Below are positions 13,936 through 61,108 of a stretch of DNA of 64,000 nucleotides, piece by piece. Every line of letters starts with the position of its first letter. Within the stretch, counting starts at the first letter, position 1. Made by a program: the position numbers and the translations under genes. Source of the stretch: Nocardia australiensis (GTDB lineage: Bacteria; Actinomycetota; Actinomycetes; Mycobacteriales; Mycobacteriaceae); assembly GCF_020733705.1 (NCBI RefSeq), contig NZ_JAJFZM010000001.1, forward strand, positions 2,170,001-2,234,000. The letters are read 5' to 3'. Under the pieces are notes generated by a model that saw nothing but the letters and a program-made list of their open reading frames with translations, did no database searches and had not been told where the DNA came from.

Positions 13936-13960
13936 CACCTCGCTAAATTCATTCGTACAC

Positions 13961-14155
13961 AAGGAAGGAGGTGGTTCGAGAAATGTATTTTTCCAGGACA
14001 CGTGAGGTGGCTGCGCGCTAGCGCCACCGCTGCTGGAGGATTCCCGCGCGAGCGCTAGCGAATCCAACGCAGTCACCCGGCCCCCGAGCCCCCGGTCCAG
14101 TCCGACCGGGCCTTGTGTGAGTTGCATCCACAAGGAAGGCTCGGGGGCCGTTTCT
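13961..14155 (+). ncRNA. Candidate structured RNA or leader element downstream of cydC
   Basis: A very strong Shine-Dalgarno (AAGGAGGTGG, 13965-13974) precedes a 12-codon ORF. Then come CGCTAGCGC (from 14017) / GCGCTAGCG (14052-14060), able to pair, and a 13-bp stem CGGCCCCCGAGCC (about 14079-14091) / GGCTCGGGGGCCG (14138-14150), followed by TTTCTGT. Inside that outer stem sit two nested hairpins, CCCGGTC/GACCGGG and CCTTGTG/CACAAGG, giving a three-way junction. The layout fits an attenuator or a small RNA ending in its own terminator. No Rfam family is claimed. Confidence 0.45.
13983..14021 (+). CDS. Twelve-residue leader peptide candidate MYFSRTREVAAR
   Basis: ATG-initiated mini-ORF with an unusually strong ribosome-binding site 8 bases upstream. 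Its stop codon lies inside the first arm of a potential hairpin (CGCTAGCGC), which is the arrangement expected of a translated leader controlling folding downstream. There is no obvious run of one amino acid that would identify a sensed signal. The next candidate gene is more than 300 bp away and doubtful, so what it would regulate is unknown. Confidence 0.4.
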   Translation: MYFSRTREVAAR

Positions 14156-14164
14156 GTATCCGCT

Positions 14165-38443: not shown

Positions 38444-39409
38444 TCAGCTCACAGCCGACGCGGTCAGCTCACGCTTCTTCGCTTCGCGGGCCAGCATGCG
38501 GTCGCGCTGCTCCTCGAATTTGACCACGTCACCGGCCAGCTTCTCGAGGAAGACGGCGAGGCGGTCGCGGACGGCCTCACCGCGCGGGGTGAAGTCGGTT
38601 CGCTCGAAGATGTTCCACTTCTTGAGGACCGGCTGTACCACCTCTTCGAGGTGCTGGCGCAGGTCGTAGATGCCGTGCTTGGCCATCAGTACGCCGTTGC
38701 GGCGGAAGTTGGGCATGCCCGCACCGGGCATCTGGAAGTTCTCCAGGATTAGCGTGATCGCCTCGATGGACTGGTCCGGCGTCAGATCGAGCGCCGCACC
38801 GCACATGTTGCGGTAGAAGATCATGTGCAGGTTCTCGTCGGCGGCGACGCGCTGCAGCATGCGGTCGGCGATCGGGTCATCGCACACCCGGCCGGTGTTG
38901 CGGTGGCTGACCCGGGTGGCCAGCTCCTGGAATGTCACGTAGGCGACCGAGTGCAGGAAGCCGGCGTCGGCCTCGGTGGGGGAGGCGAATCCGTTGGTCA
39001 TATGGATCATGCGCGCCTCTTCGAGGGCGACCGGGTCGACACCGCGGGTGACCACCAGGTAGTCGCGCATGACGATGCCGTGCCGGTTCTCCTCGGCGGT
39101 CCAGCGACCGACCCAGGTGCCCCAAGCGCCGTCTTGGGAGAAGTTCTCGGCGATCTCACGGTGATACGAGGGCAGGTTGTCTTCGGTGAGCAGATTCGTG
39201 ATCATGGCCGCCTTGGCGACCTCGCCGAGTCGGGACTGCTCGGGGTCCCAATCCACGCCGCCGAGCGCCGCGAAGTTGCGACCCTCGTCCCACGGGACAT
39301 AGTCGTGCGGATGCCATTCCTTCGCGAGGGAGAGGTGCCGGTTGACGTTTTCTTCGGCAACCGGCTCCAACTCCGTGAGCAGCTCGAGTTGAGTCAGATC
39401 CCTTGCCAT
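38444..39409 (-). CDS. desA: Acyl-ACP desaturase, DesA type
   Basis: Soluble di-iron desaturase of the stearoyl-ACP Delta9 family; mycobacterial DesA1 introduces double bonds in mycolic-acid precursors. 321 aa. Iron ligands lie in two ExxH helices, WTAEENRHGIVMRDYL and AADENLHMIFYRNM. The ATG at 39409 (MARDLTQLELL) has GAAGGGC upstream; an upstream reading to 39481 is rejected. Corresponds to Rv0824c by gene order, with inserted DNA between it and dus. Confidence 0.92.
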   Translation of the reverse strand: MARDLTQLELLTELEPVAEENVNRHLSLAKEWHPHDYVPWDEGRNFAALGGVDWDPEQSRLGEVAKAAMITNLLTEDNLPSYHREIAENFSQDGAWGTWVGRWTAEENRHGIVMRDYLVVTRGVDPVALEEARMIHMTNGFASPTEADAGFLHSVAYVTFQELATRVSHRNTGRVCDDPIADRMLQRVAADENLHMIFYRNMCGAALDLTPDQSIEAITLILENFQMPGAGMPNFRRNGVLMAKHGIYDLRQHLEEVVQPVLKKWNIFERTDFTPRGEAVRDRLAVFLEKLAGDVVKFEEQRDRMLAREAKKRELTASAVS

Positions 39410-58738: not shown

Positions 58739-59368
58739 TCAGCCCAGTATTTGCAGGTCGTAGAAGATTTGGTAGCGGTTCGGGTCGTCGGGCAGAAACC
58801 AGTGGAAACCCTCCAGCGCGAAGATAGCGATCAGATTGATCGCCAGCACGATGCCGAGGAACCACAGCGCGATCATCCCGATGATCCGCTGTGGAGTCGC
58901 CGAGATGGATGCGGCAGCAGTGCGGTGTGAAAACGACAGCACCACACCGATGGTCGCGATCGCGGCCACGAAAAGAATCAACGCCCAGACATATAGGTGC
59001 AGGCCGAGCAACGGATCGCCGTAGCCGGGGTCGCCCGGCAGGATGTGCAGCATGGTCTGGCGCCAGGAAGCGAATCCGCCTGCGACGCAGCCGACTACGG
59101 TCAGTCCCCAGCCTGCGGCGTAGTCGGTGGCCTCGATCGCCCCGTTCATGCCCTCGCGCACGATGGTCGCCGCGCCGAGCGCCGCCAGCGCCATGAACAT
59201 GCGCTGGACGACGCACAGCGGGCACGGATATTCCCATGCGCCGAACTGAAAGGCGAGCCCGCCACAGATCACCCCGGTCCACCCGAGCACGAACACCACC
59301 GCCAGCCAGTATTGAAGCTGCCCGAGCGCCGCGCGCCTACGTGTTGTCGATGCCGTAATGACCGACAT
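58739..59368 (-). CDS. dsbB: Disulfide bond formation protein B (DsbB family)
   Basis: Membrane quinone-linked oxidase that reoxidises a DsbA-like thiol oxidase. 209 aa, four or five spans; first-loop CxxC in YPCPLCVVQRMFM. The second periplasmic cysteine pair of E. coli DsbB is not obvious, so the redox path may differ. Its ATG overlaps the stop of the small DUF5993 gene (TGATG), a pairing commonly seen for this family. Confidence 0.85.
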   Translation of the reverse strand: MSVITASTTRRRAALGQLQYWLAVVFVLGWTGVICGGLAFQFGAWEYPCPLCVVQRMFMALAALGAATIVREGMNGAIEATDYAAGWGLTVVGCVAGGFASWRQTMLHILPGDPGYGDPLLGLHLYVWALILFVAAIATIGVVLSFSHRTAAASISATPQRIIGMIALWFLGIVLAINLIAIFALEGFHWFLPDDPNRYQIFYDLQILG

Positions 59369-59532
59369 CAGTAGCTCAATCCGAGTCCGAGGCCGCTGGT
59401 TATGTGATGGGCGAGCAACAGCACCGTCGCGATCAGTAGCACCCACCACGCGCCGATCACCACCCGCCGGGAGCGTTGCTGGAACAGGGCGATCATGGCC
59501 GCCAGCAAACCCGCGAAAATGAGGGTGTCCAT
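59368..59532 (-). CDS. DUF5993 family small membrane protein
   Basis: 54 aa with two membrane spans: MDTLIFAGLLAAMIALF, then RRVVIGAWWVLLIATVLLLA followed by HHITSGLGLGL. The HHIT motif and place directly upstream of dsbB, with overlapping stop and start, are typical of DUF5993. Function unknown; probably works with the DsbB homologue. Confidence 0.8.
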   Translation of the reverse strand: MDTLIFAGLLAAMIALFQQRSRRVVIGAWWVLLIATVLLLAHHITSGLGLGLSY

Positions 59533-59801: not shown

Positions 59802-59860
59802 GACGGCCCTGAACGCGCCGTGCCCGTGCGGCGCGTTCACTGCCTGGTACTGTTTCCGAC

Positions 59861-59932
59861 GTGCAGCGCGTGTATTTCTGGTTTAGCAAGCCGGCCCCGG
59901 GTGGGTCGGTCTGCGGCAACCTGCTGCGCTGA
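59861..59932 (+). CDS. Aromatic leader peptide of aroG (Tyr-Phe-Trp-Phe)
   Basis: 23-codon ORF, MQRVYFWFSKPAPGG and eight more residues, with four aromatic codons in a row (TAT TTC TGG TTT) at positions 5-8. It sits 84 bp upstream of the DAHP synthase start. Four consecutive aromatic codons, including Tyr, Phe and Trp, ahead of the first enzyme of aromatic biosynthesis point to attenuation by ribosome stalling when aromatic charged tRNAs are low. GTG start; no strong ribosome-binding site. Confidence 0.7.
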   Translation: MQRVYFWFSKPAPGGSVCGNLLR

Positions 59933-60013
59933 CCAACTTCCACCCCGAGCCGGATGATGACCGGCTCGATGGGTATCGCATCCGTGGGTCGGCCTGATAA
60001 AAAGGAACCCACC
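59901..60013 (+). promoter_or_regulatory. Alternative-pairing region between aromatic leader and aroG
   Basis: GTGGGTCGG occurs at 59901 and again at 59984; both can pair through GTGGGT with ACCCAC at 60007-60012, next to the aroG ribosome-binding site (AAAGGAA). Between them GAGCCGG / CCGGCTC (59947-59953, 59961-59967) forms a hairpin. The second GTGGGT/ACCCAC pairing would bury the ribosome-binding site, so stalling in the leader could free it. Switch mechanism is inferred. Confidence 0.5.
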
Positions 60014-60016
60014 ACG

Positions 60017-61108
60017 ATGACTACTGCAGCCGACGTCAACGCGCGGCATTCCGATCTCGATCATCAACGCACCCTCAGCGTGAGCCCACTGCGCTCGCCC
60101 GCCGAGGTGCGCCGGGTACACCCCACCACTGACGCGCTCGCCGATACGGTCCGCGCGGGCCGCGAGCACACCGTCGATGTGCTCACCGGCGCCGACGACC
60201 GCCTCATGGTGATCGTGGGACCGTGCTCGGTGCACGATCCGGCCGCCGCACTGGACTACGCGCGCCGATTGGCCGCCAAAGCGGCCGAACTGGACGATCG
60301 GCTGCACGTGGTAATGCGGGTGTACTTCGAGAAGCCGCGCACCACCCTCGGCTGGAAGGGTCTGATCAACGACCCGCACCTGGACGGCTCTTTCGACGTC
60401 AATACCGGGCTCGGCATCGGTCGCAAACTGCTTGCCGACATCACCGCGCTCGGCCTGCCGGTGGCGTGCGAATTCCTCGACCCGATAACCCCGCAGTACA
60501 TCGCGGACCTGGTCTCCTACGGCGCCATCGGCGCCCGTACCGCGGCCAGCCAGGTACATCGTCAGCTGAGCAGCGCGCTGTCGATGCCGGTCGGCATCAA
60601 GAACGGCACCGATGGTGACGTGCAGGTCGCGGTCGACGGCGTGCGCGCCGCCGCGGCCAGCCACGTGTTCCCCGGCACCGACCTGGATGGCCGGGCCGCG
60701 CTTATCCGCACCTCGGGTAATCCCGACTGCCACGTGATCCTGCGCGGCGGCAGTACCGGTCCGAACTACGACGCGGCCTCGGTCGCGGAGGCATGCATCC
60801 GGCTGGAGAAGGCTTCGCTGCCGCAACGAATCGTGGTGGATGCCAGCCATGGCAACAGCAACAAGGATCACAACAAGCAGGTCGACGTGGTCACCGATAT
60901 CGCGGGCAGGCTGGCGGCCGGTGAGCCGGGCATGGTCGGTGTGATGTTGGAGAGTTTCCTCGTCGCCGGTCGTCAGGACCTGACCCTCGGCCGGGCCGGC
61001 GAGCTCGCTTACGGCCGATCGATCACCGACGCCTGCCTGGACTGGGAGACCACCGCCACGCAACTCGATCGCCTCGCCGAGGCCGTCGCACAGCGCCGAA
61101 ACCGCTGA
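60017..61108 (+). CDS. aroG: 3-deoxy-7-phosphoheptulonate synthase (DAHP synthase, class I)
   Basis: Phosphoenolpyruvate plus erythrose-4-phosphate to DAHP, the entry to the shikimate pathway. 363 aa AroF/G/H type: IVGPCSVHDPAAALDYARRL, YFEKPRTTLGWKGLINDP, VGIKNGTDG and VDASHGNSNKDHNKQ. Many Mycobacteriales use a class II enzyme, so this class I copy may be additional. ATG at 60017 has AAAGGAA 10 bp upstream. It supplies chorismate that salicylate synthase in the same window also uses. Confidence 0.94.
   Translation: MTTAADVNARHSDLDHQRTLSVSPLRSPAEVRRVHPTTDALADTVRAGREHTVDVLTGADDRLMVIVGPCSVHDPAAALDYARRLAAKAAELDDRLHVVMRVYFEKPRTTLGWKGLINDPHLDGSFDVNTGLGIGRKLLADITALGLPVACEFLDPITPQYIADLVSYGAIGARTAASQVHRQLSSALSMPVGIKNGTDGDVQVAVDGVRAAAASHVFPGTDLDGRAALIRTSGNPDCHVILRGGSTGPNYDAASVAEACIRLEKASLPQRIVVDASHGNSNKDHNKQVDVVTDIAGRLAAGEPGMVGVMLESFLVAGRQDLTLGRAGELAYGRSITDACLDWETTATQLDRLAEAVAQRRNR

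Follow-up and report, generated by a model that had tools for sequence, protein, structure and literature searches.

A conserved aromatic leader peptide ahead of the DAHP synthase gene aroG, and its probable role in attenuation at translation initiation in Nocardia and related genera

In the window (the whole stretch of DNA analysed here, 64,000 nucleotides) the gene aroG, which encodes a class I DAHP synthase, is preceded by a short leader peptide ORF carrying a run of aromatic codons. We propose, with a probability of roughly 0.78, that this leader controls aroG by ribosome-mediated attenuation, mainly at translation initiation. We favour this reading because the leader is conserved, two of its stall codons are rare ones, its promoter lies at a fixed spacing, the helix over the aroG start (D:E) shows compensatory changes and folding predicts a switch. 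It would be a variant form of leader-peptide attenuator for DAHP synthase, whose output in this group is most likely the control of translation initiation. The features are listed in Table 1.

Table 1. Features of the leader region and of aroG (positions in the window)
Feature	Position	Strand	Description
Extended -10 box	59845-59853	+	TGG-TACTGT; 7 nt ahead of the leader GTG
Leader peptide ORF	59861-59932	+	GTG start at 59861, 23 codons, TGA stop at 59930-59932; peptide VQRVYFWFSKPAPGGSVCGNLLR
Stall cluster	59873-59884	+	Tyr-Phe-Trp-Phe (TAT TTC TGG TTT); assigned from codon conservation
Segment A	59890-59904	+	A1 GCCGGCCC (59890-59897) and A2 GGGTGG (59899-59904); near invariant, third codon positions included
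Segment B	59940-59953	+	CCACCCCGAGCCGG; partner of A or, through its 3' half (59947-59953), of C
Segment C	59961-59967	+	CCGGCTC; 3' arm of the B:C hairpin
Segment D	59979-59994	+	CATCCGTGGGTCGGCC; 5' arm of the putative helix sequestering the ribosome-binding site
Segment E	60001-60019	+	Shine-Dalgarno AAAGGA, ACCCAC (60007-60012), start GATG (60016-60019); predicted to pair with D in the OFF state
aroG	60017-61108	+	Class I DAHP synthase (aroFGH type), 363 aa; NCBIfam TIGR00034 (483 bits), PF00793

Conservation of the leader and of its aromatic codons

The earlier note had placed a leader peptide ahead of DAHP synthase and suggested that the leaders upstream of class I aroG genes be compared. 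This comparison was made and bears out the claim: the same leader, at a similar spacing, is kept from Nocardia through Rhodococcus to Amycolatopsis. It is present in all first-copy Nocardia loci examined, at a near-constant distance from the DAHP synthase gene (84 nt from leader stop to aroG start in the window). Among named loci, Nocardia araoensis and N. xishanensis come closest to the window, with a protein identity of about 94%. It also occurs in Rhodococcus, Rhodococcoides, Prescottella and Antrihabitans and, among the Pseudonocardiaceae, in Amycolatopsis, Haloechinothrix and Actinophytocola. The genera Nocardia, Rhodococcus, Prescottella, Antrihabitans and Amycolatopsis together account for about 190 distinct leader sequences ahead of the class I enzyme gene.

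When one genome per species (84,980 species) was scanned with the leader pattern, a DAHP synthase gene was found downstream in all the matches listed with readable DNA (about 77 of 80 loci). Among 395 class-level genomes, just 6 contain the pattern in its short form, and all six belong to the window's own family. The leader is thus real, far beyond chance. Its short length alone would speak for a chance ORF without regulatory role; this explanation, to which we give practically no weight, is refuted by the conservation of the leader over several families and genera, with the same enzyme gene following each time.

The window genome encodes a second DAHP synthase elsewhere, of class II, and no leader was seen ahead of it. 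A few Nocardia-type genomes carry second copies of the class I enzyme (L050/L053, L092, L116, L117); these copies are without the aromatic leader. Other sites with YFWF codons in the window genome (L133-L136) were considered and rejected: they are either internal to long ORFs or part of short ORFs with a peptide unlike that of the leader. An Rfam search of the leader region, at the gathering score and an E-value threshold, returned nothing. Elsewhere in the window Rfam matches fall at 13957-14156 and 39024-39091 (actinobacterial sRNA Ms_IGR-5 and ASdes).

Nearly every distinct leader (178 of 181) has a TANNNT hexamer ending 6 to 8 nt ahead of its start codon (at 7 nt in 139), and the TGn extension is common among them. 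Since the -10 box sits so close to the start codon, the transcript probably starts at the leader GTG, and the leader would be translated leaderless. A gene for a DsbB-like membrane protein, recognized by eye from its translation, occupies about 58739-59400 on the minus strand. As this gene is oriented away from the leader, a separate promoter should serve the leader and aroG.

Conservation of the aromatic codons, without which the proposal in the earlier note would have failed, was confirmed over the leaders compared: the Tyr codon is TAT in 182 of 182, the Trp codon TGG in 182 of 182 and the last Phe codon TTT in 180 of 182. TAT and the last TTT are therefore near invariant in the leaders, although both are rare in the enzyme genes: with the Nocardia DAHP synthase gene as the sole reference (186 Tyr and 164 Phe codons), TAT accounts for 2.7% of Tyr codons and TTT for 0.6% of Phe codons. 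Variants of the cluster (YWF, YYWF, YAFWF) all keep Tyr, Trp and Phe. This codon pattern has the look expected of a sensor for all three aromatic amino acids, as suggested in the earlier note, though it does not prove one. Some leaders (L097-L099, L101, L126, L145, L161) begin VSATYFWF rather than MQRxYFWF; they retain, in a shifted register, a CAGCG able to pair with the stop-codon region.

On the C-terminal side of the aromatic cluster the peptide has a conserved S-x-P-A-(P/L)-G-G motif, as might be expected if the peptide itself acted, as an arrest peptide or a regulatory small protein, in place of tRNA-dependent stalling. Yet the conserved residues beyond YFWF overlap RNA segment A, in which the third codon positions are likewise fixed, and the sister leaders described below retain the aromatic residues in altered surroundings (YWRF, YWF, WRFYF). 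We therefore consider an action of the peptide itself very improbable.

RNA pairings between the leader and the aroG start

Segment A has two potential partners: D, through A1, and B, through A2 or the whole of A. The D core (GGGTCGGC) is complementary to A1 (GCCGGCCC). Folding pairs D with E as CATC-C-GTGGGT with ACCCAC-CAC-GATG, which includes the aroG start codon; the GTGGGT at 59984-59989, the second in the region, is complementary to the ACCCAC that follows the Shine-Dalgarno sequence and precedes the aroG ATG.

The D:E pairing was assayed by exchanging partners among 22 leaders picked for divergent D, a choice that reduces the effect of phylogeny rather than modelling it explicitly. The duplex reaches -8.4 kcal/mol with its own partner vs -6.3 kcal/mol with the partners of other leaders (permutation p = 5e-5, the lowest value that the test can give). 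A control with shuffled E gave a combined p of 3.6e-5, a signal that not every genus shares; Nocardia, Amycolatopsis and some others supply most of it. Compensatory changes are apparent in the pairs GTGGGT:ACCCAC in Nocardia, CGCGGGT:ACCCGCG in Amycolatopsis and GCGGG:CCCGC in L058. D:E as defined here is weak or absent in some lineages, i.e. in several g27 and g48 sequences and in Actinophytocola; some leaders with a weak D:E can hide the Shine-Dalgarno sequence through an alternative pairing. The comparison thus points to a conserved helix over the aroG ribosome-binding site and start codon, as expected of a translational attenuator, though not universal across genera. The suggestion in the earlier note that the leader perhaps acts on translation gains support from these compensatory changes.

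The note had also described a repeat able to pair beside the ribosome-binding site. The sequence GTGGGTCGG is indeed present twice (59901-59909 and 59984-59992), and the pairing of the second copy stands, with compensatory changes. The repeat as such does not: the first copy varies among relatives (e.g. GTGGGCTGG) and the two copies belong to different structural elements, so that a functional repeat was rejected. We also rejected a default-off helix between the first codons of the leader (CAGCGC) and the stop region (GCGCTG). The complementarity is kept, and covariation within groups is unsupported (p = 0.31 for YFWF leaders, 0.15 for YWRF leaders, 0.017 for both pooled).

The output could alternatively be transcriptional, with B:C ending transcription, either as an intrinsic (U-poor) terminator or with the help of Rho, and A:B serving as the antiterminator, on the model of aroR of Corynebacterium glutamicum. 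The characterized relative in C. glutamicum is indeed described as transcriptional (PMC11802643, PMC4046766), and the YWRF sister leaders have a GC hairpin and a U-tract. Moreover, in the YFWF leaders of two related genera (L058, L282) the B:C hairpin, or a hairpin containing B, is followed by T6-T7 and thus forms a terminator with a U-tract. Against this, neither the window nor the great majority of YFWF leaders has a U-tract, and D:E covaries downstream of B:C, at the start site, which termination alone does not account for. Between the leader stop codon and aroG the window contains no terminator-like site; the GC hairpin followed by a U-tract that defines a classical terminator is missing there. 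Transcription attenuation in place of translational control appears unlikely.

T-rich stretches nevertheless follow B:C in about 12 of 169 YFWF-type leaders, so termination may contribute. Both outputs could then operate jointly, B:C lowering transcription read-through (possibly via Rho if aroG is untranslated) and D:E blocking translation. L058 combines a B:C terminator ending in T7 with the GCGGG:CCCGC pairing of D:E, in line with this joint action; the window has no U-tract. We regard the joint output as possible, if on balance doubtful, and it overlaps the reading that we prefer, which is worded as control "mainly" at translation. L058 (genus g41, about 404-433), with its YFWF-type leader, its B:C hairpin before TTTTTTT and the pairing at the ribosome-binding site kept, is a possible evolutionary intermediate.

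A predicted switch decided by ribosome position

The effect of the ribosome on attenuation mainly at translation initiation was modelled by equilibrium folding, without co-transcriptional kinetics, with the RNA beneath the ribosome masked and openness taken over the aroG region -10 to +3. The mean predicted openness of the aroG start in 89 divergent leaders is 0.54 with the Tyr codon in the ribosomal A site vs 0.35 with the ribosome at the stop codon (64 leaders up, 5 down). Twelve rounds of dinucleotide shuffles gave differences of 0.02-0.11, against 0.19 for the real leaders. When the ribosome is stepped codon by codon, opening is lost once its leading edge meets segment A. The switch point falls after Trp for a footprint of 9 nt, after the first Phe for 12 nt and after Tyr for 15 nt. 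It stays within the aromatic codons for footprints of 9-15 nt, and the stall cluster is therefore placed where the model needs it. Stalls at Tyr and at the first Phe are predicted to open the aroG start, a stall at Trp does so depending on the footprint and one at the last Phe has little effect; with the ribosome further along or at the stop codon the start is predicted closed. The model thus yields mutually exclusive helices decided by ribosome position, the hallmark of an attenuator, and the predicted direction, from stall to ON, is that expected for a biosynthetic gene.

The proposed mechanism would run as follows. A leaderless transcript would begin at the leader GTG. If aromatic aminoacyl-tRNA is scarce, the ribosome would stall in Tyr-Phe-Trp-Phe, with segment A free just ahead of it. 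Free A would pair with D (A1:D), or with B, leaving C for D; in either case D would be unable to close over the aroG start, and DAHP synthase would be made. If aromatic amino acids are plentiful, the ribosome would pass over A to the stop codon and the B:C hairpin would form. D would then pair with the bases that separate the Shine-Dalgarno sequence from the AUG, turning aroG translation off. The switch and its direction are predicted by folding; the stalling, the sensing of amino acids and the relative weight of translation and termination we infer.

As to which helix would keep D from E, A1 and C are both near invariant, so that covariation cannot separate A1:D from C:D. Equilibrium folding does not favour C:D as the main anti-sequestering helix, though some leaders do fold C:D and two have apparently matched changes.

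Sister leaders, known attenuators and biological meaning

Other genera of the window's family (L256-L315) carry a leader of the form YWRF...APGGA before a class I DAHP synthase that is about 55-62% identical to that of the window. In this group segment A is GGCTCCGGGTG and segment B CACCCGGAGCC, with compensatory changes between them, e.g. ATG:CAT for GTG:CAC (p < 1e-4). In most members the GC hairpin and U-tract follow the A and B segments. The members of g24, probably Corynebacterium (genomes of 2.3-2.7 Mb), have WRFYF leaders with YWRF-like GGCTCCGG and CCGGAGCC segments. These sequences would be read most simply as descending from a single leader whose output took two forms.

The aroF gene of C. 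glutamicum, which encodes a DAHP synthase, is under the control of the aroR leader (Phe-Tyr-Phe), according to PMC11802643 (citing Neshat et al. 2014) and PMC4046766; the former, on the same authority, reports that Phe limitation raises expression and that Tyr limitation does not. This missing response to Tyr in the relative counts against the mechanism proposed for the window. One engineering paper terms this control translational (PMC7356990). Like the leader in the window, aroR is a short aromatic-codon leader peptide before a DAHP synthase gene and answers aromatic supply; the g24 leaders with an aroR-like RFYF core share the A and B segments, the C. glutamicum leader itself being compared by its description. 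They differ in that aroR is described as Phe-Tyr-Phe, transcriptional and unresponsive to Tyr, whereas the window has Tyr-Phe-Trp-Phe, lacks a U-tract terminator and carries a helix with covariation across the aroG start. The Nocardia-type leader seems related to the C. glutamicum attenuator, its output changed from a transcription stop to a translation block.

The trp and phe attenuators (trpL and pheL of Escherichia coli; trp of Corynebacterium and Streptomyces, PMC1262725) likewise have runs of end-product codons and mutually exclusive helices. The classical ones, however, devote each leader to one amino acid and act through an intrinsic terminator, and in E. coli the leader is Shine-Dalgarno-initiated. 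Actinobacterial leader peptides of cys operons, without obvious terminators, and the translational ileS T-boxes (PMC1262725) are similar in that their output may be translation initiation; they concern other amino acids and genes, and a T-box reads tRNA itself, with no leader peptide involved. Seliverstov et al. (2005) found no conserved elements upstream of aro genes in Actinobacteria and reported none of the conserved structures ahead of other amino acid pathways (PMC1262725). In the open-licence literature we found no description of a leader of the Nocardia, Rhodococcus and Amycolatopsis form.

A broader proposal is that one stall cluster with fixed rare codons integrates the supply of all three aromatic amino acids for the first common enzyme of the shikimate pathway, and that a single homologous family (Mycobacteriales and Pseudonocardiales) kept its sensor and exchanged its output, from a U-tract terminator to a sequestered ribosome-binding site or the reverse. 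We hold this tentatively, at slightly less than even odds. The leader family offers a natural series on the separate evolution of the sensor and the output of an attenuator. It also permits a sharp test of the idea that Tyr and Phe codons ending in U serve to make stalling more sensitive. In Nocardia, Rhodococcus and Amycolatopsis the leader probably sets how much flux enters the aromatic amino acids and the natural products derived from them.
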